A stretch of 64,000 nt of DNA, taken from assembly GCF_016906305.1 (NCBI RefSeq), contig NZ_JADDOL010000005.1:62001-126000 (forward strand). The letters are read 5' to 3'. The stretch is from Alloalcanivorax marinus. GTDB lineage: Bacteria > Pseudomonadota > Gammaproteobacteria > Pseudomonadales > Alcanivoracaceae. Below are positions 10,264-46,474 of this stretch, one piece after another; the stretch's first letter is position 1, and the number at the start of each line of letters is the position of its first letter. The notes beneath the pieces are model-generated. The model was given only the letters and a program-made list of their open reading frames with translations. It did not search any database and was not told where the DNA came from. Position numbers and translations under genes: made by a program.

Positions 10264-10595
10264 ACCTTCCCCCCGCCGGTCCGCCACCTCCCACCTGTAG
10301 AAACGCTCGTTCGACCTCGATTCCAACGCCAGCGCCGAAAATCGCGGTGGAACCATGGCTCCTACACCACCAGCCCACACCTGCCCCCAAACCACCCACC
10401 CACCCTCAAATCCGCACCAAAAAAGTGCATCAATCTTATGAAGCTCCAACATTCACCACCTGAATACCCCTAAACCCTTCACTTTCCTGCCAATTCCCGT
10501 GTATACAAGAACGGCACATAACTTGCTCCAAGCCCTAAAACCGCCCACGACGCTGCTCGGGCGGCACTACAACACGCAGTCAGAGGAGTCACCTC
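10264..10595. other. Non-coding gap with repeat remnants and the leader of the TauE/SafE gene
   Basis: No credible gene. Up to about 10375 there are partial inverted motifs (CTGTAG near 10297 and CTCCTACA near 10350) that look like a degenerate intergenic repeat. From about 10380 the sequence becomes A/C-rich and ends in the leader carrying the TGTATACA operator at 10500. Confidence 0.5.
10500..10507. promoter_or_regulatory. TGTATACA operator upstream of the TauE/SafE permease gene
   Basis: Exact GntR/FCD-type palindrome (context gTGTATACAa), 89 bases before the TTG start at 10596. One of nine exact copies between 10.5 and 43.3 kb. Confidence 0.65.
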
Positions 10596-11429
10596 TTGGA
10601 ATTCCTGGATCAATACAGCGCCGCCTGGCTGGCGGGCCTGGTGGTCGCCCTGCTGGCCACCGGCGTCATCGCCGGCATCATGGCCGGTCTGCTGGGGGTC
10701 GGCGGCGGCATCGTCATCGTGCCGGTGCTCTATCATCTGTTCACCCTGCTGGGCGTGGACGAGTCCGTGAAGATGCACGTGGCGGTGGGCACCTCCCTGG
10801 CCACCATCATTCCCACCTCGATCATGTCGGCCCGGGCCCATGCGGCCAAGGGCAACCTGGACGCCTCGCTGCTCAAGACCCTGGGCCCGGCGCTGGTGAT
10901 CGGCGTGCTGATCGGCACCTGGCTGAGCGGCTACCTGGGCGGCACCGCCCTGACCGCCATCTTCGCCGCCGTGGCGCTGCTGGTGGCCGCCAACATGGCG
11001 TTCCGCACCCAGGGCGGCGCCCTGGCGGAATCGCTGCCCCCGACCCCGTTCAAGCAGCTGATCGGCACCGTGATCGGCGGCTTCTCCACCCTGATGGGCA
11101 TCGGCGGCGGCACCTTGACGGTGCCGATCCTGACCCTGTTCAACTACCCCATTCACAAGGCGGTGGGCACCGCCGCGGCCATCGGCCTGTTCATCAGCGT
11201 GCCCGGCGCCATCGGCTTTCTGCTGCACGGCATGGACGACCCGGGCCGGCCGCCGTTCACGGTGGGCTACGTGAACCTGATCGGCTTTATCCTGATCGTG
11301 CCGATGACCATGCTGATGGCCCCGGTGGGCGCGCGGCTCGCCCACGCCATCAACGCCACCCGCCTGCGTCAGGCGTTCGCGCTGTTCCTGTTCATCACGT
11401 CCCTGCGGATGTTCTACGGGCTGCTCTGA
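10596..11429 (+). CDS. TauE/SafE-family sulfite/organic anion exporter-like permease
   Basis: Inner-membrane permease of the TauE/SafE (DUF81) family, whose members export small anions such as sulfite or sulfoacetate; substrate unknown here. 277 residues, about eight membrane helices. Two related Gly-rich family repeats are visible: AGLLGVGGGIVIVPVLYHLF (about residues 30-49) and LMGIGGGTLTVPILTLF (about 165-181). The start is TTG, with AGAGGAG eight bases upstream; no ATG fits. First gene of the plus-strand module, ten bases before the HpxW-like gene, so export of a carboxylate or amide product is plausible. Confidence 0.88.
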   Translation: MEFLDQYSAAWLAGLVVALLATGVIAGIMAGLLGVGGGIVIVPVLYHLFTLLGVDESVKMHVAVGTSLATIIPTSIMSARAHAAKGNLDASLLKTLGPALVIGVLIGTWLSGYLGGTALTAIFAAVALLVAANMAFRTQGGALAESLPPTPFKQLIGTVIGGFSTLMGIGGGTLTVPILTLFNYPIHKAVGTAAAIGLFISVPGAIGFLLHGMDDPGRPPFTVGYVNLIGFILIVPMTMLMAPVGARLAHAINATRLRQAFALFLFITSLRMFYGLL

Positions 11430-11438
11430 GGAAACGAC

Positions 11439-13031
11439 ATGCTGCACACCAAACGCGCCCTGGGCGGCGTCTTTGTCGCCCCCCATCACCTGGCCGCCCA
11501 GGCCGGCCGGGACGTGCTCCGCGAGGGCGGTAACGCCGCCGAGGCGATGATCGCCGCCGCCGCCGCCATCGCCGTGGTCTACCCGCACATGAACGCCATC
11601 GGCGGCGACGGCTTCTGGCTGCTGGCCGAACCCGGCCAGGCGCCGCGCGCCATCGAAGCCTGCGGGCCGGCGGCGGCCGCCGCCGACGCCGACTTCTACC
11701 GGAGCCGGGGCCACGACGTGATCCCTTCCCGGGGGCCCCTGGCCGCCCTCACCGTGGCCGGCACCATCAGCGGCTGGGAGCGGGCCCGGGAGATCGCCGG
11801 CCAATGGGGCGGCCGCCTGCCCCTGCCCCGGCTGCTGGAAGACGCCCATCGCCACGCCCGGGACGGCATCGCCGTGACCCCGAGCCAGGCCGCCCTGACC
11901 GCCGCCAAGCTGCCGGAGCTCGGCGACGTGCCCGGCTTCGCCGACACCTATCTGCTGGACGGCCAGGTGCCCGCCGAGGGCCGCGTTCTGCGCCAGGCCC
12001 GGCTGGCCGACACCCTGGAGCGCCTGGGCCGGGCCGGGCTGGACGACTTCTATCGCGGCGAGCTGGCCGCCGCCATGGCCGAGGACCTGGCCCGGGTGGG
12101 CAGCCCGGTGAGCCGGGACGATCTGGCCGCCTATCACGCCCGGGTGGTGGAGCCGCTCTCCACCCGGCTGCGCACCGCCACCCTCTACAACCAGCCGCCG
12201 CCCACCCAGGGCATGGCCTCGCTGATGATTCTGGGCCTGTTCGACCGCCTGGGCGTCACCGAGGCGGAAGGCTTCGAGCACCTGCACGGCCTGGTGGAAG
12301 CCACCAAGCAGGCGTTCCTGATCCGCGACCGGCACTGCACCGACCCGGCCTACATGGACGTGGACCCGGCGGATTTCCTCACCGACGCCGACCTGGCCGA
12401 GCGGGCCGCCCGCATCGACCCGACCACCGCCCTGCCCTGGCCTCAGCCGGCGCTGCCCGGCGACACCATCTGGATGGGCTGCATCGACCGGGAAGGCCGC
12501 AGCGCCAGCTTTATCCAGAGCATCTACTGGGAGTTCGGCAGCGGCGTGGTGCTGCCCTCCTCCGGCGTGCTGTGGCAGAACCGGGGCATCAGCTTCTCCC
12601 TGGACCCGGACGCGCCCCAGGCGCTGAAGCCGGGCCGCAAGCCGTTCCATACCCTGAACCCGGCCATGGCGCGCTTCGACGACGGCCGCACCATGGTGTA
12701 CGGCACCATGGGCGGCGAAGGGCAACCGCAAACCCAGGCGGCGGTGTTCAGCCGCTACGGCCTGTTCAACCAGCCGCTGCAGCAGGCGGTCACGGCGCCG
12801 CGCTGGCTGCTGGGCCGGACCTGGGGCGAGGAAAGCACCAGCCTGAAGCTGGAGGCCCGCTTCGAGGCGGCGCTGGTGGAAAAGCTGCGCGACGCCGGTC
12901 ACCAGGTGGAAATGCTGGACCAGGATTTCAGCGACACCATGGGCCATGCCGGCGCCGTGGTGCGGCACCCGGACGGCGTCATCGAAGGCGCCAGCGATCC
13001 GCGCAGCGACGGCGTGGTGGCGACCCTCTGA
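11439..13031 (+). CDS. Gamma-glutamyltransferase-fold Ntn hydrolase, HpxW (oxamate amidohydrolase)-like
   Basis: Self-processing N-terminal nucleophile hydrolase. 530 residues, matching HpxW of the Klebsiella purine pathway (about 530) rather than secreted GGT (about 580), and with no signal peptide. N-terminal AAQAGRDVLREGGNAAEAMIAAAAA and NAIGGDGF are family motifs. The expected cleavage and catalytic Thr is Thr343 in PGDTIWMGCIDREG. The downstream PSSGVLWQNRGISFS and GTMGGEGQPQTQAA fit the small subunit. HpxW hydrolyses oxamate to oxalate and ammonia. The nearby HpxZ homologue supports this reading, but the exact substrate is inferred. Start ATG has GAGGAAACGAC upstream. Confidence 0.8.
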   Translation: MLHTKRALGGVFVAPHHLAAQAGRDVLREGGNAAEAMIAAAAAIAVVYPHMNAIGGDGFWLLAEPGQAPRAIEACGPAAAAADADFYRSRGHDVIPSRGPLAALTVAGTISGWERAREIAGQWGGRLPLPRLLEDAHRHARDGIAVTPSQAALTAAKLPELGDVPGFADTYLLDGQVPAEGRVLRQARLADTLERLGRAGLDDFYRGELAAAMAEDLARVGSPVSRDDLAAYHARVVEPLSTRLRTATLYNQPPPTQGMASLMILGLFDRLGVTEAEGFEHLHGLVEATKQAFLIRDRHCTDPAYMDVDPADFLTDADLAERAARIDPTTALPWPQPALPGDTIWMGCIDREGRSASFIQSIYWEFGSGVVLPSSGVLWQNRGISFSLDPDAPQALKPGRKPFHTLNPAMARFDDGRTMVYGTMGGEGQPQTQAAVFSRYGLFNQPLQQAVTAPRWLLGRTWGEESTSLKLEARFEAALVEKLRDAGHQVEMLDQDFSDTMGHAGAVVRHPDGVIEGASDPRSDGVVATL

Positions 13032-13127: not shown

Positions 13128-13135
13128 TGTATACA
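13128..13135. promoter_or_regulatory. TGTATACA operator upstream of the TRAP operon
   Basis: Exact palindrome, context gTGTATACAt, 141 bases before the dctP start and 30 bases after the terminator. A second inverted repeat lies between it and the gene. Confidence 0.6.
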
Positions 13136-13163
13136 TTCGGGGCACCGTGCACCATGGAGAGAC

Positions 13164-13183
13164 ATTTATTGTCCTCAATAAAT
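13164..13183. promoter_or_regulatory. Inverted repeat in the TRAP operon leader
   Basis: ATTTATTG-TCCT-CAATAAAT, two exact 8-base arms, A/T-rich within a very GC-rich region. A TATAAT lies just downstream at 13200-13205. It could be a second operator; no regulator is assigned. Confidence 0.4.
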
Positions 13184-13275
13184 ACCTAACCCCTTGTTTT
13201 ATAATAAAAAGCGGTTTTGGCACAAAGTCTGCTCTATTCCTCCTGTCCTTACTCCCTTTCGGCAGGAGACCTTCC

Positions 13276-14274
13276 ATGATCCGTATTACCCGTTCGCTCA
13301 CTCTCGTGGCCCTGTGCCTGCTCGGCCTGGGCGCCCAGGCGGCCACCGTCGTCAAACTGCACCACGACCTGACCGAGGACAGCGCCCAGCAAGAGGGCGC
13401 GGTGCGCTTCAAGGAACTGGTGGAAGACCGCAGCGGCGGCGCCATCGAGGTGAAGATCTACCCCAACAACGCCCTCGGCGACGACGTGCAGGTGGCCCAG
13501 CAGATGCAGTTCGGCGCGGTGCAGGCGGCGCCCATTCCCACCGCCAAACTGAGCGGTTTCAATAAGCAGCTGCAGCTCATCGACCTGCCGTTCCTGTTTC
13601 CCTCCCGGGAGGTGGCCTATGAGTTCCTGGACGGCCCGGTGGGCGAGCGGGTGCTGAGCGGTCTGCGTGACGCCGGCTTCGAGCCCGCCATGTTCTGGGA
13701 AAGCGGCTTCAAGCAGATGACCTGCGACCGGGCGGTGCACGAACCCGCCGACCTGAAAGGCACCAAGTTCCGGGTCATGGAAAGTCCGCTGCTGATCGCC
13801 CAGTACAAAGCGGTGGGCGCCAACCCGGTGCCGATCGCCTTCTCGGAAACCTACACCGCCCTGCAGCAGGGCGTGGTGGACTGCCAGGAAAACCCGCTGG
13901 TGTCGATCTCGCAGATGAAGTTCTACGAGGTGCAGGACTACCTGATGCTTTCCAACCACGGCTACCTGGGCACCGCCTTCATCTTCAGCAAGGTGTGGTT
14001 CGACGGCCTGCCCAAGGACCAGCAGGACATCCTGATGGCCGCCGCCCGCGAGGCCGGTGAGTATCAGCGCGAGCGCTCCGCCGCCCGCGAACAGGGCTAC
14101 CTGGACGGCATCAAGGCCGCCGGCGGTACCGAAGTGATCGAACTCACCGACGCGCAGAAGCAGGCCTTCCGCGACGCCATGGACCCGGTCTACGAAGAAT
14201 TCGGCGGCATTCTCGGCGCGGACCTGATGCAGGCCACCCGCCAGGAACTCGAGCGTCTGAGCGCCGGCCAGTAA
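13276..14274 (+). CDS. TRAP transporter solute-binding protein, DctP family
   Basis: Periplasmic receptor of a tripartite ATP-independent transporter, typically for an organic acid. 332 residues. The signal peptide MIRITRSLTLVALCLLGLGAQA ends in an Ala-x-Ala site. DctP features: GAIEVKIYPNNALGDDVQ, LDLPFLF-type segment (IDLPFLFPSREVAYEFLDGP), the ligand-binding region DLKGTKFRVMES, and NPVPIAFSETYTALQQGVVDCQENP. AGGAGA precedes the ATG. First gene of dctP-dctQ-dctM, followed by amidase and hpxZ, so the ligand may be an amide-bearing carboxylate such as oxalurate or oxamate (inference). Confidence 0.92.
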   Translation: MIRITRSLTLVALCLLGLGAQAATVVKLHHDLTEDSAQQEGAVRFKELVEDRSGGAIEVKIYPNNALGDDVQVAQQMQFGAVQAAPIPTAKLSGFNKQLQLIDLPFLFPSREVAYEFLDGPVGERVLSGLRDAGFEPAMFWESGFKQMTCDRAVHEPADLKGTKFRVMESPLLIAQYKAVGANPVPIAFSETYTALQQGVVDCQENPLVSISQMKFYEVQDYLMLSNHGYLGTAFIFSKVWFDGLPKDQQDILMAAAREAGEYQRERSAAREQGYLDGIKAAGGTEVIELTDAQKQAFRDAMDPVYEEFGGILGADLMQATRQELERLSAGQ

Positions 14275-14296
14275 CGGTCGGCGGGGAGCAATCATC

Positions 14297-14803
14297 ATGT
14301 GGCAACGATTCAGCGACGGTCTCGCCAAACTGGAGGCGGCGGCGGTGGGCAGTCTGATCCTGTTCGCCGCGCTCATGCTGTGCGTGCAGATCAGCGCCCG
14401 CGCCCTGTTCAACTTCTCGTTCAGCTGGGCCGAGGAAAGCGTGCGCTACGCCATCATCTGGATGGTGTTCCTGTCCTGCGGCCTGGCGTTTCGCAAGGAC
14501 GCGCACATCAGCATCGACGTGCTGCGCCAGATTCTCCCCGGCCCGGCCCGCAAGACCCTGGAAGTGCTGATCACCCTGGCCTGCGCGGTGCTTGCCGGGC
14601 TGCTGGTGTGGTACGGCGGTGCCATGGTCCAGACCCTGCACCGCTTCGGGCAGGTGTCACCGGCCATGGAGGCCCCCATGTATTGGTTCTACCTGGCGAT
14701 CCCGTTCAGCGGCGTGCTGATGCTGATCCGCCTGGCGGAATCCCTGGTGCGCATACTGCACCCTCGGCCGGCCCAAGAGCCGGCCCCGGTTCTGGCGGGG
14801 TAA
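14297..14803 (+). CDS. TRAP transporter small permease, DctQ family
   Basis: Four-helix membrane subunit linking the receptor to the large permease. 168 residues. The four hydrophobic segments lie at about residues 15-35, 50-68, 88-108 and 132-150. The family pattern FSWAEESVRYAIIWMVFLSCGLAFRKDAHI is clear. The downstream dctM gene starts four bases after its stop. Confidence 0.93.
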   Translation: MWQRFSDGLAKLEAAAVGSLILFAALMLCVQISARALFNFSFSWAEESVRYAIIWMVFLSCGLAFRKDAHISIDVLRQILPGPARKTLEVLITLACAVLAGLLVWYGGAMVQTLHRFGQVSPAMEAPMYWFYLAIPFSGVLMLIRLAESLVRILHPRPAQEPAPVLAG

Positions 14804-14807
14804 CGAT

Positions 14808-16091
14808 ATGGGCGCGGGTTTCTTCGTGATGGTGTCCGGCCTGCTGACCGTGGGCCTGCCGATTTTCGTGGCACTGACCCTGGCGGTGTTCATCGGCCTG
14901 CATCTGGAAAACGGCACGCCGCTGATGCTGATCATTCAGCGCATGTTCTCCGGCCTGGACAGCTTTCCGCTGATGGCGATTCCGCTGTTCATCCTGGCCG
15001 GCAACCTGATGAGCACCGGCGGCCTGTCCCAGCGCATCCTGCGCGTGGCCATGCTGCTGGTGGGCCCGATGCGTGGCGGGCTGGCCATGACCACGGTCAC
15101 CGGCTCCATGTTCTTCGGCGCCATCTCCGGCTCCAGCCCGGCCACCGTGGTCTCCATCGGCCGCATGATGCTGCCCACCATGACCGAGCAGGGCTACGAC
15201 AAGAAGTTCACCCTGGGCCTGCTGATGGCCACCGGCGCCCTGGGCATCATCATTCCGCCCAGCATCTTCATGATCGTGTACGGCGCCGTGGCCGGGGTGT
15301 CCATCGGCGCCCTGTTCATGGCCGGCATCGGCGCCGGCCTGGTCTACGGCGCGGTGTTCTTCGGCTATTGCTGGTACCGGGCCCGCCGCGACGGGCTGGA
15401 GCCGCAGCCCTGGCCGGGCCTGGGCGAGCTGCTGGCGGCGGTGCGCGAGGCGATCTGGGGGCTGGCGATTCCGGTGCTGATCCTGGGCGGCATCTACGGC
15501 GGCGTGTTCACGCCCACCGAGGCGGCGGCGGTGGCGGTGGCCTACGCCGCCTTCGTCGGCCTGTTCGTGTACCGGGAGCTGGACCTGGCATCGCTGTGGA
15601 AGGTGTGCGTGGACAGCGCCGTGATCACCGCCCAGGTGATGATCATCATCTCGGCGGCGGCGGCGTTCTCCTGGTACCTGACCTCCACCGGCATCACCGA
15701 AACCATCGCCGGCGGCCTGCTGGCGCTCAGCGACAGCCCCTGGACCCTGCTGCTGCTGATCAATGTGGTGGTGCTGATCGCGGGCATGTTCCTGGACCCC
15801 AACTCCATCGTCATTATCCTGGTGCCGTTGATCGTCAATGTGGCCCGGGCGGTGGGCATCGACCTGGTGCATCTGGGCGTGATCCTGTGCGTGAACTGCG
15901 CCATCGGCATGTTCACGCCACCGTTCGGCATGAACCTGTTCGTCGCCAGCGGCCTCGGCAATGTGCGTTACTCCGAGGCGGTGCGCGGCGCCCTGCCACT
16001 GGTGTGGCTGGCGATGCTGGCGCTGCTGATCGTCAATGTGTTCCCTGAAATCAGCCTGTGGCTGCCCCGCACCGTGGTCTCGGGCATGTAG
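14808..16091 (+). CDS. TRAP transporter large permease, DctM family
   Basis: Main ion-coupled membrane subunit of the TRAP system. 427 residues, about 12 hydrophobic segments. Family motifs include FPLMAIPLFILAGNLMSTGG, GAISGSSPATVVSIG, IIIPPSIFMIVYG and FTPTEAAAVAVAYA. It forms a unit with dctP and dctQ and is followed 20-30 bases later by the amidase gene. Confidence 0.95.
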   Translation: MGAGFFVMVSGLLTVGLPIFVALTLAVFIGLHLENGTPLMLIIQRMFSGLDSFPLMAIPLFILAGNLMSTGGLSQRILRVAMLLVGPMRGGLAMTTVTGSMFFGAISGSSPATVVSIGRMMLPTMTEQGYDKKFTLGLLMATGALGIIIPPSIFMIVYGAVAGVSIGALFMAGIGAGLVYGAVFFGYCWYRARRDGLEPQPWPGLGELLAAVREAIWGLAIPVLILGGIYGGVFTPTEAAAVAVAYAAFVGLFVYRELDLASLWKVCVDSAVITAQVMIIISAAAAFSWYLTSTGITETIAGGLLALSDSPWTLLLLINVVVLIAGMFLDPNSIVIILVPLIVNVARAVGIDLVHLGVILCVNCAIGMFTPPFGMNLFVASGLGNVRYSEAVRGALPLVWLAMLALLIVNVFPEISLWLPRTVVSGM

Positions 16092-16122
16092 CCGGGCCAC
16101 GTCATCGGAAATGGAGACGTTC

Positions 16123-17286
16123 GTGAAACTGGAAAACGGCTTTCTGGACTTCGACCCGGTCCATCTTCACCCCACCGGCCGCGGCACGCTGGACGGCCGG
16201 CGGTTCGCGGTGAAGGACGTGTACGACATCGCCGGCACCGTTACCGGCATCGGTCATCCTCTTTATCGTGAAACCCACTCGCCCGCCGACCATACCTCGC
16301 CGCTGGTGGAAACGCTGCTGGCCGCCGGCGCCGAGCTGGTGGGCAAAACCCACACCGACGAGCTCACCTACAGCCTGGCCGGCCAGAACGTGCACTATGG
16401 CACGCCGCCCAACCCGGCGGTGCCGGACGGCATCCCCGGCGGGTCCTCCAGCGGCTCCGCCTCGGTGGTGGCCGCCGGCCTGGTGGACTTCGCCCTGGGC
16501 AGCGACACCGGCGGCTCGGTGCGGGTGCCGGCCAGCTACTGCGGGGTGTACGGCCTGCGCCCCACCCATGGGCGGATGGACGACCGGCACACCGCGCACC
16601 TGGCGAAAAGCTTCGACACCCTGGGCTGGTTCGCCGGCGACGCCGCCACCATGGCGGCGGTGGGCCAGGTGCTGATGACGCCGGACACCGGCCCCGCCCC
16701 GGTGGAACTGCGCCTGCTGCGCGAGGGCCTGGACATGGCCGACGAGACCGTGGTGGACCAGCTGCGTGACCTCACCGCCGACGGCTTCGCCGGGCTGCGC
16801 CTGGACGAGGACGCCACGGTGGGCCCGCTGGACGCCTTTTTCCAGGCGTTCCGGCCGGCCCAGGCGTTCGAGGCCTGGCAGTATTTCGGCGAGTGGATCA
16901 CCGCCCACCAGCCGCAATTCGGCCCGGGCATCCGCGAGCGCTTCGCCGCCGCCGCCGCCATCACCCCGGAGCAGGCCGCCGAGGCCCGCGCCGCCTGCGA
17001 CGCCCTGCGCCGGCGGGTCCGGCAACTGGTGGGCGAAGGCAACGTGCTTTGTCTGCCCACCACGCCCACCTCGGCGATCCCCCTGGACGCCAGCGACGAG
17101 CAAGTGGACGAGGTGCGCTTTCGCACCCTGTGCATGACCGCCGTGGCCGGCACCGCCGGCCTCCCGCAGCTGAGCCTGCCGCTGCTGCGCGACGCGCGCG
17201 GCCCGGTGGGTCTGTCGCTGATCGGCCCGCCGGGCAGCGACCGGGCGCTTCTTGACCTGGCGGTGAAGTGGGAGCAGGCACGATGA
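16123..17286 (+). CDS. Amidase-signature enzyme, AMI1-like
   Basis: Hydrolase of the amidase-signature family with the Ser-cisSer-Lys triad. Lys is in RFAVKDVYDIAG, and the Ser pair in GGSSSGSASVVAAGLVDFAL and GSDTGGSVRVPASYCGVYG. It resembles plant AMI1 and short bacterial amidases (TVTGIG, YSLAGQNVHYGTPPNPA), about 390 residues, shorter than AtzE/HpxY (about 460). The GTG at 16123 has GGAG seven bases upstream. An ATG at 16111 would add four residues with a weaker site. ATGA overlap with hpxZ shows translational coupling. In Klebsiella the partner of HpxZ is an AtzE-type amidase (HpxY), so this may be a replacement. Substrate unproven. Confidence 0.85.
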   Translation: MKLENGFLDFDPVHLHPTGRGTLDGRRFAVKDVYDIAGTVTGIGHPLYRETHSPADHTSPLVETLLAAGAELVGKTHTDELTYSLAGQNVHYGTPPNPAVPDGIPGGSSSGSASVVAAGLVDFALGSDTGGSVRVPASYCGVYGLRPTHGRMDDRHTAHLAKSFDTLGWFAGDAATMAAVGQVLMTPDTGPAPVELRLLREGLDMADETVVDQLRDLTADGFAGLRLDEDATVGPLDAFFQAFRPAQAFEAWQYFGEWITAHQPQFGPGIRERFAAAAAITPEQAAEARAACDALRRRVRQLVGEGNVLCLPTTPTSAIPLDASDEQVDEVRFRTLCMTAVAGTAGLPQLSLPLLRDARGPVGLSLIGPPGSDRALLDLAVKWEQAR

Positions 17287-17669
17287 GCGCCGAACTGGAC
17301 CTCCCGGAGGTGGTGGCGGAAGTACGCGCCGCCTTCGAGGAATACGAAAACGCACTGGTCAATAACGACGTGGCGGTGCTGGATCGGTTATTCTGGGAAG
17401 ATTCCAGGGTGGTGCGCTACGGCGCCGGCGAAAACCTGTACGGCTACGACCAGATTCAGGCGTTCCGTGCCGCCCGGCCAGGCAATAATCTGGCCCGCAC
17501 CCTGCATAACACCCGTATCACCACCCATGGTCGCGACCTGGCCACGGTCTGGACCGAGTTCACCCGGCCGGGCAATTCCCGCACCGGGCGCCAGAGCCAG
17601 GTATGGGCGCGCCGCCCCGAGGGCTGGCGCGTCGTGGCCGCCCATGTATCGTTCATGGACGAGGGCTAA
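17283..17669 (+). CDS. hpxZ: HpxZ/AtzH-family protein (DUF3225, SnoaL-like fold)
   Basis: 128 residues. The N-terminal part EVVAEVRAAFEEYENALVNN, then DRLFWEDSRVVRYGAGENLYG, then TEFTRPG and GWRVVAAHVSFM match HpxZ of oxalurate catabolism and AtzH of s-triazine degradation, single-domain NTF2/SnoaL-like proteins. The start overlaps the amidase stop (ATGA) and the regulator gene follows five bases after. The close match to HpxZ is the strongest clue that this module handles oxalurate/oxamate-type compounds. Confidence 0.85.
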   Translation: MSAELDLPEVVAEVRAAFEEYENALVNNDVAVLDRLFWEDSRVVRYGAGENLYGYDQIQAFRAARPGNNLARTLHNTRITTHGRDLATVWTEFTRPGNSRTGRQSQVWARRPEGWRVVAAHVSFMDEG

Positions 17670-17674: not shown

Positions 17675-18403
17675 ATGAGCGAGCAGTCATCTCCCGTGTC
17701 CGCCGTACCGTTACCGGTGGACACCGACCGCCCCCTGGCGGAGCAGATCCGTCGGGCACTGTCCGATGAGATTCTCGGCGGCGCCCTGCCGCCGGGCACC
17801 CGTCTGGACGAGATCGCCCTGGCGCGCCGCTTCGACGTGTCGCGCACGCCGGTGCGCGAGGCGCTGCGGGAGATGGCCTCCGCCGGGCTGGTGGAACACC
17901 AGCACCGGCGCGGCGTGTTCGTGATCGAGATCCCCGACCAGCGGCTGGCGGAAATGTTCGAGTACGCCGCGGAAATGGAAGCGGTGTGCGCGCGCATGGC
18001 GGCGGTGAAGATGACCCGGGCGGAGCGCGAGGAACTGCTGGCCGTGCACCTGGACAGCCATGTGCACGTGGTCAATGAGGACGTGGACGCCTACGACGCC
18101 GCCAACCTGCGCTTCCACGAACGGTTGTTCAGCGGCTGCCACAACAGCTATTTGTTCGAAGCCGCCATGGCCGCCCGCTCCCGGGTGCTGGCCTACCGCC
18201 GGGTGCAGTTCACCGTGGGTGATCGGCTTTCCACCTCGTTCGCCGAGCACAGCGGCATCGTCATGGCCATCGTGCGCGGCGAGAGCGAGCACGCCGCGGA
18301 ACAGATCCGCGACCACGTGCTCAGCGCCCACCGTACCTCCCAGAACTACCTGGGGCGCCGGGCGCCCCGGGAAGAGGACGATCAGTCGTCCCAGGTTTCC
18401 TGA
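17675..18403 (+). CDS. GntR-family transcription regulator with FCD domain (regulator 1)
   Basis: 242 residues. N-terminal winged helix: PLAEQIRRALSDEILGGALPPGTRLDE, ARRFDVSRTPVREALREMASAGLVEHQHRRGVFV. The all-helical FCD ligand domain follows, with the metal/ligand pattern around EYAAEMEAVCARMAA, NLRFHERLF and AEHSGIVMAIVRGESEHAAEQIRDHV. Last gene of the plus-strand module and probably its regulator. FadR/FCD regulators recognise t-GTATAC-a type palindromes, which occur upstream of this module at 10500 and 13128. Tail-to-tail overlap of 22 bases with the next minus-strand gene. Confidence 0.9.
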   Translation: MSEQSSPVSAVPLPVDTDRPLAEQIRRALSDEILGGALPPGTRLDEIALARRFDVSRTPVREALREMASAGLVEHQHRRGVFVIEIPDQRLAEMFEYAAEMEAVCARMAAVKMTRAEREELLAVHLDSHVHVVNEDVDAYDAANLRFHERLFSGCHNSYLFEAAMAARSRVLAYRRVQFTVGDRLSTSFAEHSGIVMAIVRGESEHAAEQIRDHVLSAHRTSQNYLGRRAPREEDDQSSQVS

Positions 18404-19371: not shown

Positions 19372-19396
19372 CGCGACCTCCACGGTCAGAAAAGGA

Positions 19397-33613: not shown

Positions 33614-33618
33614 GGACA

Positions 33619-37784: not shown

Positions 37785-37792
37785 TGTATACA
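37785..37792. promoter_or_regulatory. TGTATACA operator of the flavodoxin-like gene
   Basis: Exact palindrome (cTGTATACAg), 51 bases before the start at 37734, in the divergent region shared with guaD. Confidence 0.65.
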
Positions 37793-37939: not shown

Positions 37940-37947
37940 TGTATACA
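37940..37947. promoter_or_regulatory. TGTATACA operator of guaD
   Basis: Exact palindrome (gTGTATACAt), 22 bases before the guaD start codon. Confidence 0.7.
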
Positions 37948-39253: not shown

Positions 39254-39784
39254 TCAGCCGCCGGCGCGGGCGGCCAGGCGCAGCCGCGCGATGCGGTTGA
39301 CCTGGGCCACCGCGGTGGCGCGCTCGGTGTCCGCGTCGTTGTTCAGACGCGCCTCGAAGGCCTGAAGAATCTCCCGCCGGTGCAGGCCGCGCACCGCCAC
39401 GATAAAGGGAAAACCGAAACGCGCCCGGTAGGCCGCGTTGAGTGTCTGGAAGCGCTCGAACTCCTCCTCCGTGCATTGGTCCAGCCCGGCACCGGCCTGC
39501 TCGGCGCCGGAGTCGGCGGTGAGCGCCTCGCCCACCGCCAGCTTGCCGGCCAGGTCCGGGTGGGCGCGCAGCACCGTCAATTGCGCGCCGGCATCGGCGG
39601 CGTCGAACACCGCCGCCAGCCGCGCCGCCAGCCCCTCAACGGTATCGTCCCGCGCGCTCAGTCCGGCGCGGTGGGCCTGGCGGGCGATCCAGGGGGAGTG
39701 CTCGTAGACGTCGCCGTAACAGGCCACGAAGGCGTCCTCGTCCAGGGTGCTGGGGCGCGGCGACAGCCGCTCGGTTTCAGCCAT
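39254..39784 (-). CDS. uraD: 2-oxo-4-hydroxy-4-carboxy-5-ureidoimidazoline (OHCU) decarboxylase
   Basis: Third step of urate breakdown, giving (S)-allantoin. 176 residues. Catalytic His75 in VLRAHPDLAGKLA, and the signature FQTLNAAYRARFGFPFIVAVRG; RREILQAFEARLNN completes the family. Overlaps puuE by eight bases, so the two are co-transcribed leftward from the 40747 operator region. Confidence 0.95.
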   Translation of the reverse strand: MAETERLSPRPSTLDEDAFVACYGDVYEHSPWIARQAHRAGLSARDDTVEGLAARLAAVFDAADAGAQLTVLRAHPDLAGKLAVGEALTADSGAEQAGAGLDQCTEEEFERFQTLNAAYRARFGFPFIVAVRGLHRREILQAFEARLNNDADTERATAVAQVNRIARLRLAARAGG

Positions 39785-40694
39785 GCTGCGTCATCCAGTG
39801 TCGGGCGATATCGAGGCGCCGGGCCACCCAGACGTCCGGGTGGGCGCGCACGTGGCGCAGAAACCTTTCCAGGGCGGCGGCGCGTCCCGGGCGCCCCGCC
39901 AGACGGCAATGCAGCCCCACCGACATCATGCGCGGCCCCTCCGCGCCCTCCCGGTAGAGATAATCGAAGGTATCGCGCAGATAGCGGAAGAACGGCTCGC
40001 CGTCGCCGAACCCCGCCGGCGAGGCGAACCGCATGTCGTTCACATCCAGGGTATAGGGCACCACCAGATGGCGCTGGTCCGCCACCCGGGTCCAGAACGG
40101 CAGATCATCGTTGTAGTCGTCGGCGTCATAAAGAAAACCGCCGTGCTCCACCACCAGCCGCCGGGTATTGGGGCTGGTGCGGCCGGTGTACCAGCCCAGG
40201 GGCCGGTGGCCGGCGGCGCGGGTCAGCGCCTCCACGGCACGGCCGATGTGTTCCGCTTCCACCGCCTCCGGCACGTATTGGTAGTCGATCCACCGATAGC
40301 CGTGGCTGCAGATTTCGTGGCCTTCATCGACCAGGGCGCGAATCACCTCGGGATGGCGTTCGGCGGCCATGCCCACGGCGAACACGGTGAGCGGCAGCCG
40401 ATAGCGCCGGAACAGGCGCAGCAGGCGCCAGACGCCGGCCCGGCTGCCGTACTCGTACAGGGACTCCATGCTCATATGGCGCACGTCGGGGCGCGCCTCG
40501 ACCCCCGTCATCTCAGAGAGAAAGGATTCCGACGCGGGGTCGCCGTGCAGCACGCAATTCTCACCGCCCTCTTCGTAATTGAGCACGAATTGCACCGCCA
40601 GCCGGGCGCCGCCGGGCCAGCGCGGGTCCGGCGGCGTCGGACCGTAGCCGATCAAATCACGGGGGTAGCCGGACGCCGGCTCCTGTTCCGCCAT
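39777..40694 (-). CDS. puuE: Allantoinase PuuE (polysaccharide-deacetylase fold)
   Basis: Converts allantoin to allantoate. 305 residues. Typical opening YPRDLIGYGPTPPDPRWPGGARLAVQFVLNYEEGGE and GYRWIDYQYVPEA are diagnostic of the metal-independent PuuE type, with SHGYRWIDY replacing the usual NodB metal motif. The ATG at 40694 has AGGAG upstream; the in-frame extension to 40976 runs into uraH and is rejected. Divergent from uraH. Allantoate-degrading enzymes are not in the window. Confidence 0.94.
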   Translation of the reverse strand: MAEQEPASGYPRDLIGYGPTPPDPRWPGGARLAVQFVLNYEEGGENCVLHGDPASESFLSEMTGVEARPDVRHMSMESLYEYGSRAGVWRLLRLFRRYRLPLTVFAVGMAAERHPEVIRALVDEGHEICSHGYRWIDYQYVPEAVEAEHIGRAVEALTRAAGHRPLGWYTGRTSPNTRRLVVEHGGFLYDADDYNDDLPFWTRVADQRHLVVPYTLDVNDMRFASPAGFGDGEPFFRYLRDTFDYLYREGAEGPRMMSVGLHCRLAGRPGRAAALERFLRHVRAHPDVWVARRLDIARHWMTQHG

Positions 40695-40746: not shown

Positions 40747-40754
40747 TGTATACA
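40747..40754. promoter_or_regulatory. TGTATACA operator between puuE and uraH
   Basis: Exact palindrome (cTGTATACAt) in the 112-base divergent region, 53 bases from each start (puuE 40694, uraH 40807). One site could control both directions. Confidence 0.7.
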
Positions 40755-40806
40755 TCTTTGTGGTTTTATTGTCGACATTGCAAAACACAATATCGAGGAG
40801 CGACCC

Positions 40807-41166
40807 ATGGGGCGTCTCACCACGCACGTGCTCGACACCGCCAGCGGGCGGCCCGCCACCGGCCTGGCCCTGGAACTGTGGCGCCTGGACGATGAACGCC
40901 TGTCCCTGATCGGAGAATGCAAAACCGATGCCGACGGCCGCTGCCCGTCGCCGTTGCTGGAAGGGGAGGCGTTCACGCCCGGGCGTTATCAGCTGCTGTT
41001 CCGGGCCGGTGATTATTTCCGCGACCGGAACCCGGGCGACGCCCCGCCGGAGCCGGCGTTCCTGGACGAAGTGATCGTGCGTTTCGGGGTCGCCGACGCC
41101 GACCGCCACTATCATGTGCCCTTGCTGCTGTCGCCCTACGGCTACAGCACCTACCGGGGGTCCTGA
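40807..41166 (+). CDS. uraH: 5-hydroxyisourate hydrolase (transthyretin-related)
   Basis: Second step of urate breakdown, opening 5-hydroxyisourate to OHCU. 119 residues. N-terminal RLTTHVLDTASGRPATGLALELW with the active-site His7, and the C-terminal signature HYHVPLLLSPYGYSTYRGS are diagnostic. GAGGAG precedes the ATG. puuD begins two bases after the stop. Confidence 0.96.
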   Translation: MGRLTTHVLDTASGRPATGLALELWRLDDERLSLIGECKTDADGRCPSPLLEGEAFTPGRYQLLFRAGDYFRDRNPGDAPPEPAFLDEVIVRFGVADADRHYHVPLLLSPYGYSTYRGS

Positions 41167-41168
41167 CC

Positions 41169-42359
41169 ATGGAAGGGCATCTCCATGAGTGGGCGAACCT
41201 GCTGATCCGCTGGCTGCACATCACCGTGGGCGTGGCCTGGATCGGCGCCTCGTTCTACTTCAACTGGCTGGAGAATCAGCTGGAGCGCGACGGCGACAAA
41301 CCCGAAGGCGTGGAAGGCACCCTGTGGGCGATCCACGGCGGCGGCTTCTATCACCTGCAAAAATTCCAGGTGGCGCCGGCGCGGCTGCCGGAGCGTCTGC
41401 ACTGGTTCAAATGGGAGGCCTACTACACCTGGATCAGCGGCTTCCTGCTGCTGGCGGTGGTCTATTACCTGAACGCCCGCACCAACCTGATCGACCCCTC
41501 GGTGGCGGACCTGTCGCCGCTCGCCGCCAGTCTGATCGGTCTGGCCACCCTGGCGCTGAGCTGGCTGGTCTACGACGGCCTGTGCCGCTCGCCGCTGGGG
41601 CGCAGGCCGGTGGCGCTGGCCGCCGTGCTGTTCGCGCTGCTGGTGCTGCTGGCCTGGGGGCTGAATCAGCTGTTCAGCGGTCGTGGCGCCTATATCCACG
41701 TGGGCGCCGCCATCGGCACCTGCATGGTGGCCAATGTGTTCTTCGTGATCATCCCCGGTCAGCGCGCCATGGTGGCGGCCATGCAGGCCGGCCGCGCGCC
41801 GGACGGCGCCCGGGGCCGGGCCGGCGCCCTGCGCTCGCGGCACAACAACTACCTGACCCTGCCGGTGCTGTTCATCATGATCAGCAACCATTTTCCCGGC
41901 ACCTACGGCAGCCACTGGAGCTGGCTGATTCTGGTGGCCCTGGCGGCGGTGGGCATCGTTATTCGCCATTACTTCAACGTGCGCCACCTGCCCGGCCGCC
42001 ATTGGCCGCTGCCGGTGCTGGCGCTGGCCGGCCTGGTGACGATCGTGGCGGCCACCGCGCCGGTGGCTTTGCAGAAGGACGGCGGCGACGGCGCCGGCCC
42101 CACGGTGCCGCTGGCCCAGGTGCGCCCGGTGATCGAGCAACGTTGCGCGGTGTGCCACGCGGCCCGGCCCTCCTTCGGTGGTTTCGCGACGCCGCCCAAG
42201 GGCATTCGCCTGGACGACGACGACGCCATCCGCCAGCACCGCCGGCAGATCGGTCAGGTGGCGGTGCGCACGCACATCATGCCGCCCGGCAACATTACCG
42301 GCATCACCGAGCAGGAGCGCGCGCTGCTGGAACGCTGGCTGAACCAGACGGCGCCCTGA
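41169..42359 (+). CDS. puuD: Membrane urate oxidase PuuD with cytochrome c domain
   Basis: First step of urate breakdown (urate to 5-hydroxyisourate), coupled to the respiratory chain rather than to peroxide formation. 396 residues: about eight membrane helices (DUF989/PuuD domain) followed by a C-terminal c-type cytochrome. The haem motif C326-A-V-C329-H330 lies in VIEQRCAVCHAARPS and a distal Met in HIMPPGNI. N-terminal WLHITVGVAWIGASFYFNWLE is typical. Co-transcribed with uraH. Confidence 0.95.
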   Translation: MEGHLHEWANLLIRWLHITVGVAWIGASFYFNWLENQLERDGDKPEGVEGTLWAIHGGGFYHLQKFQVAPARLPERLHWFKWEAYYTWISGFLLLAVVYYLNARTNLIDPSVADLSPLAASLIGLATLALSWLVYDGLCRSPLGRRPVALAAVLFALLVLLAWGLNQLFSGRGAYIHVGAAIGTCMVANVFFVIIPGQRAMVAAMQAGRAPDGARGRAGALRSRHNNYLTLPVLFIMISNHFPGTYGSHWSWLILVALAAVGIVIRHYFNVRHLPGRHWPLPVLALAGLVTIVAATAPVALQKDGGDGAGPTVPLAQVRPVIEQRCAVCHAARPSFGGFATPPKGIRLDDDDAIRQHRRQIGQVAVRTHIMPPGNITGITEQERALLERWLNQTAP

Positions 42360-42399: not shown

Positions 42400-42407
42400 T
42401 GTATACA
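42400..42407. promoter_or_regulatory. TGTATACA operator of GntR regulator 2
   Basis: Exact palindrome (aTGTATACAt), 46 bases before the regulator start, consistent with autoregulation. Confidence 0.7.
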
Positions 42408-42452: not shown

Positions 42453-43193
42453 ATGGCCACGGCTCCCGACTCCGGCAAGTTCCCCTCCGCCGCCACCCTG
42501 GCCCCCGCCCGGGGCGCGCGCAAAGCCAGTGACCAGACCATCTACGATTCAATCTACGAGGCGGTGCTTACCCAGCGGCTGCCGCCGGGCTCGCGGCTGC
42601 CGGAGGTGGCGCTCAGCGAGATGTTCGGCGTGAGCCGCTCCATCGTGCGCAAGGCGCTGACCCGCCTGACCTCCGACCATGTGATCGAACAGCGCCCCAA
42701 CCAGATGGCCATGGTGGCGCGCCCGGACGTGGAGGAAACCCGGCAGATTTTCGCCGCCCGGCGGCTGGTGGAAAGCGAGGTAATGCGGCTCACCGCCGGC
42801 ACCCTGAGCAAGGCGCGGGTGCAGGAACTGCGCAAGCTGGTGAAGGATGAGAAGGCCGCCCACGACAGCGGCCGCGATCAGGACCGCGTGCATTGCTCCA
42901 TGGAAGTGCATCGTTTCCTGGCCCGGCACTGCCCCAATCAGGTGCTGGGGCGGATGATGCGTGACCTGGTTTTGCGCACCTCCATCGTCATCGCCCTGTA
43001 CAAATCCCCGGGCATCACCGCCTGTTTTCTGGGCGACGACCACGGCCGCCTGGCCACCCTGATCGCCAAGGGCGACGGCGAGGCGGCGGCGGCCCTGGCC
43101 CACGACCATCTGGTGGCGCTGGAAAACCTGCTCGACCTCAACGACGACAGCCGCCCCATCGATCTCGCCAGTATTCTGCGCCCGCCTTCCTGA
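42453..43193 (+). CDS. GntR-family transcription regulator with FCD domain (regulator 2)
   Basis: 246 residues. Winged helix: SDQTIYDSIYEAVLTQRLPPGSRLPEVALSEMFGVSRSIVRKALTRL. FCD-domain helices follow with His and Asp positions (MEVHRFLARHCPN, GDDHGRLATLIAKGDGEAAAALAHDHL). Lies centrally in the purine genes and has a TGTATACA site upstream, so it is the best candidate for the regulator of the whole set. Ligand unknown. Confidence 0.9.
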   Translation: MATAPDSGKFPSAATLAPARGARKASDQTIYDSIYEAVLTQRLPPGSRLPEVALSEMFGVSRSIVRKALTRLTSDHVIEQRPNQMAMVARPDVEETRQIFAARRLVESEVMRLTAGTLSKARVQELRKLVKDEKAAHDSGRDQDRVHCSMEVHRFLARHCPNQVLGRMMRDLVLRTSIVIALYKSPGITACFLGDDHGRLATLIAKGDGEAAAALAHDHLVALENLLDLNDDSRPIDLASILRPPS

Positions 43194-43234: not shown

Positions 43235-43242
43235 TGTATACA
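43235..43242. promoter_or_regulatory. TGTATACA operator of the 8-oxoguanine deaminase-like gene at 43273
   Basis: Exact palindrome (cTGTATACAg), 30 bases before the start. A TTGTCG at 43212 lies 17 bases before TGTATA, so the operator would cover the -10 region. Confidence 0.7.
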
Positions 43243-43272: not shown

Positions 43273-44637
43273 ATGCCCCGCACCCTGCTGCTGAAGAACG
43301 CCACCCTGGTCGCCACCCTGGACGACGACCAGGGTGAGATCGCCGACGGCGCCGTGCTGATTACCGACAACCGCATCAGCGCCGTGGGCGCCACCGCGGA
43401 CCTGCCGCACAGCGCCGATGAGGTGATCGACCTGCGCGGTCATGTGGTGATTCCCGGGTTGGTGAACACCCACCATCATATGTTCCAGTCGCTCACCCGG
43501 GCGCTGCCGGCGGCGCAGAACGCGGAGCTGTTCGACTGGCTCAGCGCCCTGTTTCCGGTGTGGGGCAACATCACCCCGGAGATGATGACCGCCTCGGCCA
43601 CCACCTCCATGGCGGAGCTGGTGCTGTCCGGCTGCACCACGGCGGCGGACCACGCCTATCTGTACGTGAACGGCTCGCGGCTGGAAGACAATCTGGAGGC
43701 GGCCCACGCGGTGGGGCTGCGCTACCACGGCGTGCGCGGGGCGATCACCCTGGGCCGGAGCCAGGGCGGTCTGCCGCCGGATCAGGTGGTGGAGCAGGAC
43801 GAGGACGCGGTGCTCAAGGAGATGCAGCGGGTGGTGGAGACCCACCATCAGCGCGCCGACGACGCCATGATCCAGGTGGCCCTGGGCCCCTCGTCCCCGT
43901 TCACCGTGACCCCCGACCTGATGCGGCAAAGCGCCCTGCTGGCCCGCGACCTGGGCGTGCTGATGCACACCCACACCGCCGAGAACAGCAAGGATCTGGC
44001 CTTCAGCCAGGAACGCTACGGCATGACCCCGGCGCAGTTCGCCGAGCACACCGGCTGGGTCGGCGAGGACGTCTGGCACGCCCACTGCGTGCACCTGGAC
44101 GACCACGGCATCGACCTGTTCGGCCGCACCGGCACCGGCGTGGCCCACTGCCCCTGCTCGAACATGCGCCTGGCCTCCGGCATCGCGCCGATCCGCAAGA
44201 TGCTGGACCATGGCGTCAAGGTCGGCCTGGGCGTGGACGGCACCGCCTCCAACGACGGCAACGACCTGCTCGGCGAAGCCCGCCAGGCGATGCTGGTGGC
44301 GCGGGTGCGCCATGAGGACCCCACCGCCATGAGCGCCCGCGAGGCGCTGTGGCTGGCCACCCGGGGCGGCGCCCGGGTGCTCGGCCGGGATCACGCCATC
44401 GGCCGGCTGGCACCGGGCTACTGCGCCGACCTGATCGCCTTCGACCTGAACGACATCGCCTACGCCGGCGGCCAGATCGATCCGCTGGCGTCCCTGCTGT
44501 TCTCGGCGCCGCGCCGGGTCAGCTACAGCTTTATCAACGGCCGCAAGGTGGTGGACCGGGGCCGGCTGGCCACCGTGGACCTGCCCCGCCTGGTGGAAAA
44601 CCACAACCGCCTGGCACGGCAACTGATCGGCGCCTGA
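43273..44637 (+). CDS. Amidohydrolase, 8-oxoguanine deaminase-like (copy 2)
   Basis: 454 residues. Zn motif LVNTHHHMFQSLTRALP (His 67-69), SGCTTAADHAYLY, MHTHTAENSKD, HCVHLDDHG, HCPCSNMRLASGIAPI and LGVDGTASNDGNDLLGEARQ match characterised 8-oxoguanine deaminases more closely than copy 1 does. AAGGAG precedes the ATG. Heads a unit with 2OG-3 and an alpha/beta hydrolase. Would supply urate to PuuD, either from damaged guanine or as part of an oxidative guanine route. Confidence 0.86.
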   Translation: MPRTLLLKNATLVATLDDDQGEIADGAVLITDNRISAVGATADLPHSADEVIDLRGHVVIPGLVNTHHHMFQSLTRALPAAQNAELFDWLSALFPVWGNITPEMMTASATTSMAELVLSGCTTAADHAYLYVNGSRLEDNLEAAHAVGLRYHGVRGAITLGRSQGGLPPDQVVEQDEDAVLKEMQRVVETHHQRADDAMIQVALGPSSPFTVTPDLMRQSALLARDLGVLMHTHTAENSKDLAFSQERYGMTPAQFAEHTGWVGEDVWHAHCVHLDDHGIDLFGRTGTGVAHCPCSNMRLASGIAPIRKMLDHGVKVGLGVDGTASNDGNDLLGEARQAMLVARVRHEDPTAMSAREALWLATRGGARVLGRDHAIGRLAPGYCADLIAFDLNDIAYAGGQIDPLASLLFSAPRRVSYSFINGRKVVDRGRLATVDLPRLVENHNRLARQLIGA

Positions 44638-44666
44638 CGGTGCCGGCCCACGCCGGGAGAATGCCC

Positions 44667-45647
44667 ATGAGCACCGATTTCGACGCCCTCCGGGTCGACC
44701 AGGACGCCCTGCCGATCATCGACATCTCCGGCCTGCGCTCGCCGCGCGCCGCCGAGCGCCGGGCCGTGGGCCTGGCCCTGCGCGCCGCCTGCACCGACAA
44801 GGGCTTTTTCTATATCCGCGAGCACCGCATCGATCCGGCGCTGCAGGCGCGGGTGTTCGAGGCGTCGCGCGCCTTCTTCGCCCTGCCCATGGAGCACAAG
44901 CGCCAGGTGGACATGGCCCATTCGCCGGCCAACCGGGGCTACGACCCGCTGCGCGGCCAGACCCTGGAAGCCGGCGCGCCGCCGGACCTGAAGGAGAGCT
45001 ATTACATCGGCGAGGAGCGCGGCCCGGACGATCCCAAGGTGCGCGCCGGCAAGTTCAATCACGGGCCCAACCAATGGCCCGCCCAGGTGCCGGACTTCCG
45101 CCCGGCCATCGAGGCCTACTACCAGGCCATGACCGCCCTCAGCGAGCGCATCATGGCCGGCCTGGCCCTGTCCCTGGATCTGCAGGAGGACTTCTTCGCG
45201 GACTTCTGCGTGGAGCCCCAGGCCATCGTCCGCCTGCTGCACTACCCGCCGCAGCCGGCCAATCCGGCCCCCAACGAAAAGGGCTGCGGCGCGCACACCG
45301 ACTTCGGCGGCATCACCCTGCTGCTGCAGGACGACAACGCCGGCCTGCAGGTCTGGGACGAGGCCGGCGGCGGCTGGCTCCACGCCGACCCGATTCCCGG
45401 CACCTACGTGGTCAACCTGGGCGACATGATCGCCCGCTGGACCAACGACCGCTATCGCTCCACCGTGCACCGGGTGGTGAATATTTCCGGGCACGAGCGG
45501 TACTCGGTGCCGTTCTTCTATTCCGGCAACCCGGACCATGAGGTGCGCTGCCTGCCCGGCTGCCTGGCACCGGGTGAACAGCCCAAGTACCCGCCGGTGA
45601 CGGTGGAGCAGCACCTTATGGAAATGTATCGGCGGACCTATGCGTGA
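44667..45647 (+). CDS. 2-oxoglutarate/Fe(II) dioxygenase, isopenicillin-N-synthase-like (2OG-3)
   Basis: 326 residues. LPIIDISGLRSP and KGFFYIREHRIDP form the DIOX_N part. Iron ligands: His and Asp in GCGAHTDFGGITLLLQ and His in STVHRVVNISG; 2OG Arg in ERYSVPFF. More distant from 2OG-1 and 2OG-2 than those are from each other. The ATG at 44667 is seven bases after GGGAG; another ATG six bases upstream is too close to that site. Overlaps the next gene by eight bases. Confidence 0.87.
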   Translation: MSTDFDALRVDQDALPIIDISGLRSPRAAERRAVGLALRAACTDKGFFYIREHRIDPALQARVFEASRAFFALPMEHKRQVDMAHSPANRGYDPLRGQTLEAGAPPDLKESYYIGEERGPDDPKVRAGKFNHGPNQWPAQVPDFRPAIEAYYQAMTALSERIMAGLALSLDLQEDFFADFCVEPQAIVRLLHYPPQPANPAPNEKGCGAHTDFGGITLLLQDDNAGLQVWDEAGGGWLHADPIPGTYVVNLGDMIARWTNDRYRSTVHRVVNISGHERYSVPFFYSGNPDHEVRCLPGCLAPGEQPKYPPVTVEQHLMEMYRRTYA

Positions 45648-46431
45648 GGCGCCGACGTTGTCAGAGCCGGTACGCGATCTGATTCTGATTCACGGCGCCT
45701 GGGCCGCCGCCTGGGTGTGGGACGATCTGCTGGCGCCGCTGCGCGCGGCCGGCTTCCGGCCCCGGGCGGTGGAACTGCCGGGCAACGGGCACGGTCCGCT
45801 GGGCGGCCTGGACGCCGGTCTCGACGATTACGAGAACACGGTGCTGGCGCTGCTCGATACCCTGCCCGGCCCGGTGGGGCTGGTGGCCCATTCCGGCGGC
45901 GGCGTCACCGCCACCCGGGTGGCGGAACGGGCGCCGGAGCGGATCGCCGGCGTGGCCTTCGTCGCCGGCATGATGCTGCCCTCCGGCACCGGCTTCGCGG
46001 ACATCACCGCCGCCCTCAAGGCCGACCACCCGGAGGCCGCCGGCATCGTGCCGCACCTGCTCTGGAACCAGGCACGCGGCGCCAGCCGGGTGCCACCGGA
46101 GGCCGCCCGGCGCATCTTCTTCCAGGATCTGCCCGAGGCCGCCGCGCGGCGCGCCGCCGGGCGCCTCACTCCGCAACCGGAAAAAGCCCGCGCGGCGGTG
46201 CCGGTGTGGAGCGCCGGACGGTTCGGGCGGGTGCCACGCCTGTATGTGGAAGCTCTGCGCGACCGCTCGGTGGTGCCCGCCGCCCAGCGGCGCATGCAGG
46301 CGCTGGTGCCCGGCGCCCGGGTGGTGTCCCTGGACACCGGCCACGCGCCCCAGGTGGCCGCGCCGGCGGCGCTGGCGGAAGTGCTGGGCGAGTTTTTCCG
46401 CGACCCCGCCGCCGGCCCTCAAGGCGCCTGA
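45640..46431 (+). CDS. Alpha/beta hydrolase (esterase/hydroxynitrile lyase-like)
   Basis: 263 residues. LILIHGAWAAAWVWDDLLAPL is the oxyanion segment. The nucleophile Ser is in VGLVAHSGGGV, an Asp candidate lies near VEALRDRSV, and the His in LDTGHAPQVAAP. Resembles the salicylate/methylesterase-like group. Eight-base overlap with 2OG-3 implies a shared step; substrate unknown. Confidence 0.82.
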   Translation: MREAPTLSEPVRDLILIHGAWAAAWVWDDLLAPLRAAGFRPRAVELPGNGHGPLGGLDAGLDDYENTVLALLDTLPGPVGLVAHSGGGVTATRVAERAPERIAGVAFVAGMMLPSGTGFADITAALKADHPEAAGIVPHLLWNQARGASRVPPEAARRIFFQDLPEAAARRAAGRLTPQPEKARAAVPVWSAGRFGRVPRLYVEALRDRSVVPAAQRRMQALVPGARVVSLDTGHAPQVAAPAALAEVLGEFFRDPAAGPQGA

Positions 46432-46454
46432 AAAGCCCGAATGGGCACAAGCTT

Positions 46455-46474
46455 TGCATACACTTCCGTATACA
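46455..46474. promoter_or_regulatory. Paired operator variants upstream of the SBP4 operon
   Basis: TGCATACA (46455-46462) and CGTATACA (46467-46474), each one mismatch from TGTATACA, with centres 12 bases apart. The pair ends 22 bases before the SBP4 start. The spacing of about one helical turn would suit two dimers on one DNA face. Confidence 0.55.

Follow-up and report, generated by a model that had tools for sequence, protein, structure and literature searches.

Catabolic island and octamer

The 64,000-nucleotide stretch of Alloalcanivorax marinus analysed here (the window, whose numbering is used throughout unless a contig is named) carries a block of catabolic genes in which the octamer TGTATACA recurs. 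Judging from its conservation in relatives, this palindrome is a real control site of the 36-kb purine-breakdown block, and we relate it to two GntR-type regulators with FCD domains, R1 and R2. The genome of the strain, G000, comprises 4,054,516 bases in 56 contigs. A transfer-messenger RNA (tmRNA) gene at 9728-10085 marks the left edge of the island, whose genes are as follows (2OG, 2-oxoglutarate-dependent; NMT1, NMT1-type binding protein).

10596..13031, plus strand: TauE and gamma-glutamyltransferase-family protein (Pfam)
13147..17669, plus strand: TRAP transporter DctPQM, amidase, AtzH-like protein (Pfam)
17675..18403, plus strand: R1, GntR-FCD regulator (open frame from 17603; Pfam GntR and FCD)
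18382..27274, minus strand: porin, isochorismatase, cupin, S15 peptidase, ABC, FAD oxidase, creatininase-like protein, NMT1-a
27856..35540, minus strand: two Rieske (VanA_C) and two 2OG oxygenases, amidohydrolase, MFS, NMT1-b
38000..39247, plus strand: guanine-deaminase-like amidohydrolase (scores below the NCBIfam cut-offs)
39254..40694, minus strand: OHCU decarboxylase and allantoinase PuuE (above the NCBIfam cut-offs)
40807..42359, plus strand: HIUase and PuuD-type urate oxidase (Pfam)
42453..43193, plus strand: R2, GntR-FCD regulator (open frame from 42381; Pfam GntR and FCD; structure model)
43273..46431, plus strand: 8-oxoguanine deaminase (above the NCBIfam cut-off), 2OG oxygenase, alpha/beta hydrolase

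The window contains nine exact copies of TGTATACA, starting at 10500, 13128, 27839, 35595, 37785, 37940, 40747, 42400 and 43235, exactly where the first-pass annotation had placed them. Its estimate of less than one copy by chance agrees with 100 dinucleotide shuffles of the window, which gave a mean of 0.04 copies and in no case reached nine. Allowing one mismatch raises the count to 14, made up of the nine exact copies, the four already named in that annotation (27518, 36848, 46455 and 46467) and a further one at 25721, TGTAAACA, which lies inside the isochorismatase gene and was not on the earlier list. A scan of the whole G000 genome located TGTATACA at 13 places, nine of them within the window, and the same word read backwards, which served as a control, at none; the refuting condition set in that annotation, a motif equally common elsewhere, was checked in this way and did not refute the proposal. 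For nine of 13 genome sites to cluster within 32.7 kb, the chance probability is about 1e-16, which becomes about 1e-14 when 124 such stretches are allowed for; the stretch itself was picked post hoc.

TGTATACA is the most frequent 8-mer in the noncoding DNA of the region, which makes up 6.4% of positions 10400-46600 and yet holds all nine exact sites. This placement depends on the use of shortened gene starts, which were set from ortholog matches and domain starts; the longest open frames of NMT1-b, the FMN reductase, the guanine deaminase, PuuE and R2 overlap their own sites. The earlier description, according to which all sites are intergenic and most lie 19-90 bases before a catabolic unit, stands for the noncoding position and for eight of the sites, which are found 19 to 96 bases upstream of the inferred starts (the 19-base figure presupposes a GTG start codon for DctP, which could lie too far upstream), and fails for 27839, which does not precede a catabolic unit.

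Conservation of the sites and of R2

The island was examined in G000, in six other R2-bearing genomes of the genus (G018, G019, G020, G021, G023 and G028) and in G029; from G026, with an R2 that is 99% identical, the site positions alone were used. The individual sites and their conservation are listed below, where counts out of seven refer to the R2-bearing genomes and counts out of eight include G029.

10500..10507, plus strand: TGTATACA, 96 bases upstream of TauE-gamma-glutamyltransferase; assigned to R1; exact in 8/8
13128..13135, plus strand: TGTATACA, before DctPQM-amidase-AtzH-R1; assigned to R1; exact in 8/8
27518..27525, minus strand: one-mismatch site (reads TGTATGCA in this orientation), some 250 bases upstream of the porin
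27839..27846, strand not assigned: TGTATACA, starting 10 bases after the Rieske gene 2 stop codon, about 565 bases upstream of the porin; kept in 4/7
35595..35602, minus strand: TGTATACA, before the NMT1-b/2OG/Rieske/amidohydrolase/MFS operon; in 4/7
36848..36855, minus strand: one-mismatch site before NMT1-c; one-mismatch site at the equivalent place in 7/7
37785..37792, minus strand: TGTATACA, before FMN reductase (WrbA-like); exact in 7/7
37940..37947, plus strand: TGTATACA, before the guanine-deaminase-like gene; exact in 7/7
40747..40754, strand not assigned: TGTATACA, between PuuE (minus) and HIUase (plus); exact in 7/7
40770..40777, strand not assigned: TGTCGACA, another GT-N2-AC palindrome between PuuE and HIUase; kept in 7/7
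42400..42407, plus strand: TGTATACA, 53 bases upstream of R2 (putative autoregulation); exact in 7/7
43235..43242, plus strand: TGTATACA, before 8-oxoguanine deaminase; exact in 4/7, GGTATACA in the other three
46455..46474, plus strand: two one-mismatch sites upstream of NMT1-d/ABC; the two other genomes examined each have an exact copy

In six upstream regions of 260 bases, two of which overlap and for which the ortholog starts were placed by hand, the octamer is intact in all genus genomes compared (seven or eight), as opposed to only 5 of 1,398 other 8-mers. Four of these five belong to the TGTCGACA palindrome, which lies 23 bases from the PuuE/HIUase operator and has a single copy in the window, a number not above chance; it is possibly a variant operator. 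The genomes compared represent few lineages, with near-identical flanks in G018, G019 and G028, and the independent events are therefore far fewer than the conservation counts. The site of the 13128 type precedes the amidase in genomes that lack the TRAP genes, and TGTATGCA is found 223-252 bases upstream of the porin in all five genomes examined. The operon 26108-18382 is linked to the octamer through these porin-upstream sites alone, cotranscription with the porin being assumed. Besides these sites, TGTGCACA at 35757-35764 upstream of NMT1-b is kept in 4/7 genomes, and the 27839 site is flanked by the Rieske gene 2 stop codon on one side and a terminator-like hairpin on the other.

The remaining four sites of the genome lie outside the island (gene names of the first three partly by eye).

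Contig C14, 62249: TGTATACA, 150 bases upstream of a second TRAP transporter
Contig C23, 189593: TGTATACA, with a second porin on one side and, on the other, an IclR-like gene and then an amidohydrolase
Contig C19, 12747: TGTATACA, 130 bases upstream of a gcvT-like gene
Contig C23, 288488: TGTATACA, within a long open frame

They were compared with 20 non-island site regions from six sister genomes, of which G020, G021 and G023 were covered completely and G018, G019 and G028 in part. The first two sites were found again in G020, G021 and G023, and the last two had no counterpart among the 20 regions. About 11 of the 13 genome sites thus look functional and two look like chance occurrences, because two of the four outside sites recur in sister genomes and two match none.

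R2 orthologs (at least 71% identity) are present in eight of the 13 genus genomes, and these are the same eight that bear this urate oxidase (Fisher p 0.0008, relatedness ignored). The genome-wide number of TGTATACA copies is 10-16 in the R2-bearing genomes and 4, 0, 3, 4 and 10 in those without R2. A search for R2 relatives found 523 loci, of which the best 80, mutually related and with a total of 1,234,611 bases, contain 68 copies of TGTATACA versus two of the control word, with a site in 37 of the 80. At 49-86% identity (34 loci), TGTATACA is the top upstream 8-mer, occurring in 22 of 34 loci versus 0.03 expected. In the group at 38-43% identity (L165-L210), TGTGTACA is located upstream in 15 of 46 loci and is commoner there than TGTATACA, possibly as a result of operator drift. 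Separately, 19 longer loci from other genera were hand-picked from a search with matches in 63 of 390 genomes; 16 of them carry TGTATACA, with 36 sites in total and none of the control word, many before PuuE, PuuD or the regulator. Of these sites, 25 are outside rough gene calls that cover 81.5% of the sequence. R2-like genes were found near PuuE and guanine-deaminase-like matches in several of the loci, just as R2 adjoins both in the genus.

Probable operator recognition and pathway context

Both R1 and R2 score above the cut-offs of the GntR and FCD Pfam models, in line with the first-pass annotation, which had named two FCD regulators, one with a site before itself (here R2). That the octamer is of the type bound by FCD-GntR proteins, as also proposed there, is supported by Atu1419 of Agrobacterium fabrum, a solved relative of R1 (E value 1.4e-15) whose operator has TGTATACA as its core. 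The study on this FCD regulator of the VanR group reports a crystal structure and gel shifts with 5'-ATGTATACAT-3', a contact of Arg45 with the operator G, and the loss of binding when this G and its C partner were changed; it also describes two palindromes overlapping -10 boxes and calls Atu1419 a repressor (PMC7797058). In an alignment of R1 to Atu1419 and of R2 to R1, with the numbering counted by hand, the contact residues Arg31, Glu34, Arg45 and Arg49 are kept in both regulators, and at position 46 R1 has Thr where R2 has Ser. The three His metal ligands are conserved in all 22 aligned sequences, and the Asn ligand is kept in R1 and is Ser in R2. The R2 model (mean predicted local distance difference test score, pLDDT, 84) shows six main helices in the C-terminal domain (residues 93-225) plus a terminal one of five residues; six rather than seven helices place R2 in the VanR group. 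Atu1419 was among the Foldseek matches of the model, and 3IHU superposes better. R1 and R2 hence resemble Atu1419 (PDB 6Z74, 6ZA3 and others) in the operator core, the contact residues and, for the R2 model, the fold. However, the targets of Atu1419 are hydroxycinnamate genes, the identity is only 20-odd percent, and R2 carries Ser at the positions of Thr46 and of the metal ligand Asn137.

By analogy, the nearest published precedent among purine systems is HpxS of Klebsiella pneumoniae, compared here through its published description. The hpxS gene is linked to a PuuE-type allantoinase and a guanine deaminase, an arrangement also seen for R2 in the genus. HpxS is listed with a 2-nt GT-AC spacing (PMC4494728) and named among activators or repressor/activators (PMC4609117). 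The two systems share this spacing and, as predicted for the present island, GntR control of allantoinase and guanine deaminase types, whereas the present island is of much greater size and includes oxygenases and R1 as well. GntR genes beside the caffeine N-demethylase (Ndm) genes are called likely repressors, and the text available gives no operator for them (PMC10380055); here, too, a GntR gene stands beside genes of purine-type Rieske oxygenases. We found no description of TGTATACA as a purine-gene operator among the results listed for purine, urate and GntR regulons, a search that did not extend to RegPrecise and most subscription journals; TGTATACA together with GntR gave one paper, and TTGTATACAA together with GntR gave none.

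With regard to the pathway, the set of gamma-glutamyltransferase-family protein, amidase and AtzH-like protein probably forms an oxalurate-oxamate limb (HpxW, HpxX, HpxZ). The best solved-structure match of the Rieske protein Rsk1 in the PDB is the methylxanthine demethylase NdmA, and that of the 2OG enzyme at 44640-45647 is 9OVH, a 2OG-dependent ethylene/succinate-forming enzyme, with thymine dioxygenase lower. The Rieske and 2OG oxygenases (27856-35540, 44640-45647) are situated in the urate island of a genus whose 13 genomes all lack an XdhB match exceeding the curated cut-off. Weaker XdhB relatives are present in nine of the 13, so that another molybdenum enzyme could still oxidise xanthine; molybdenum-free purine oxidation by the island oxygenases is possible. 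Riboswitch control of the NMT1 genes was dismissed, the tmRNA being the sole Rfam match in the window at the gathering threshold, and the sub-threshold Rfam hits in 9500-52000 include no purine riboswitch.

Proposed assignment of the sites to two regulators

We consider it likely, with a probability of roughly 0.75, that TGTATACA is the operator of FCD regulators of the VanR type, with R2 acting on the guanine and urate genes, on linked operons and on its own gene, and R1 on two operons of the amidase/AtzH type. R1 orthologs (at least 77% identity) occur in the eight R2-bearing genomes of the genus and in G029, which lacks R2 and urate oxidase and has retained R1 together with both R1-side sites. 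The sites at 10500 and 13128 were assigned to R1 and the others to R2 because of this genome and because two out of four distant R1 relatives, members of a single genus, have TGTATACA next to them. Since R2 tracks urate oxidase while G029 keeps R1 and its sites, the island probably comprises two regulons that share one octamer. The first-pass annotation had predicted a single regulon; a set of catabolic operons under this operator is upheld, but the single regulon is doubtful in view of G029, of the sites that R2 relatives carry in many other genera and of other GntR genes that adjoin the octamer.

From these patterns we infer binding by both proteins and a division of labour. R2 would bind the octamer upstream of the genes that deaminate guanine and 8-oxoguanine, oxidise urate and hydrolyse allantoin, of linked operons for oxygenases and uptake, and of the R2 gene itself, and would most likely act as a repressor that is released by a metabolite of the purine pathway. 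R1 would bind the same octamer before the two operons for the gamma-glutamyltransferase-family protein and for the TRAP transporter, amidase and AtzH-like protein, which probably represent an oxalurate-oxamate limb. Cross-binding of R1 and R2 would be expected. The distance of 19-96 bases to the start codons suits repression, and activation is also possible.

That a single regulator, either R2 or R1, runs the whole island via TGTATACA while the other FCD protein binds elsewhere appears unlikely. One octamer is used throughout, its flanking bases form no two classes (by eye they revealed no clear difference by which R1 and R2 sites could be told apart), and R1 and R2 occur together in eight of the 13 genus genomes; however, R2 alone leaves the two sites retained in G029 unexplained, and R1 alone fails to account for the TGTATACA copies upstream of R2 relatives in genera where no R1 was found at an E value of 1e-40, R1 being present in only 11 of the 390 genomes of the order. 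Another FCD regulator of the genome as the reader of the sites is very improbable. G000 encodes further GntR homologues, with seven matches to R2 at an E value of 0.001 or better, and other GntR genes of the genus also stand beside TGTATACA, so that the octamer alone names no single regulator, but the octamer upstream of R2 itself is present in 7/7 genomes and R2 co-occurs with the purine genes. The closest paralog, R3, was rejected as a candidate owing to its altered recognition helix and the absence of TGTATACA from its 20 kb. R3 (L111, 10609-11346; contig C1 of the own genome) is 37% identical to R2, has the helix VGRTLVQKVL and adjoins a PuuE-like gene; another GntR gene of the genus (L084 at 6589, L086 at 8630) has GTATACTGTATACAGTATAC-like palindromes 114 bases upstream. 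Finally, it is hardly credible that the octamer reflects no protein operator and is an effect of composition or promoter elements in A+T-rich noncoding DNA. It does contain TATACA, which agrees with a -10 box at four of six positions, and the noncoding DNA is richer in A+T here (0.38 vs 0.32), yet the shuffles and the absence of the reversed word from the genome oppose this, the word is confined to the island and two conserved loci, and the candidate -35/-10 frames around it vary, for which reason a fixed promoter frame was discarded.

Several observations weigh against the assignment to R1 and R2 proposed here. R1 is present in every R2-bearing genome of the genus and could therefore in principle serve all sites there. 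G029 has 10 TGTATACA sites without R2, two of which were examined. An exact upstream TGTATACA was not found in 12 of the 34 closer R2-relative loci and was present in only seven of the 46 at 38-43% identity. Within the island, the 27839 site is oddly placed, the NMT1-b site is gone in three of seven genomes with nothing within one mismatch in its place, and no -10 box was seen at a fixed position relative to the octamer. In addition, the compared genomes and loci are partly close kin.

GntR control of purine genes is already known from HpxS, and the more novel element is the apparent use of one octamer by two diverged regulators over two pathway limbs. A further-reaching version remains doubtful, in which the two diverged FCD regulators share an identical 8-bp operator and thereby cross-connect the upper limb of the pathway, from guanine and xanthine to urate and allantoin, with the lower, oxalurate-type limb, in an island whose Rieske and 2-oxoglutarate oxygenases replace the classical molybdenum xanthine dehydrogenase. 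With nine exact and four near sites, two candidate regulators and one natural R2-less genome, the system offers a test set for the way in which related GntR proteins use the same operator jointly or split it between them. Moreover, it connects oxygenases, binding proteins and porins that are still uncharacterised with the use of purines and thereby limits the range of substrates they are likely to have.

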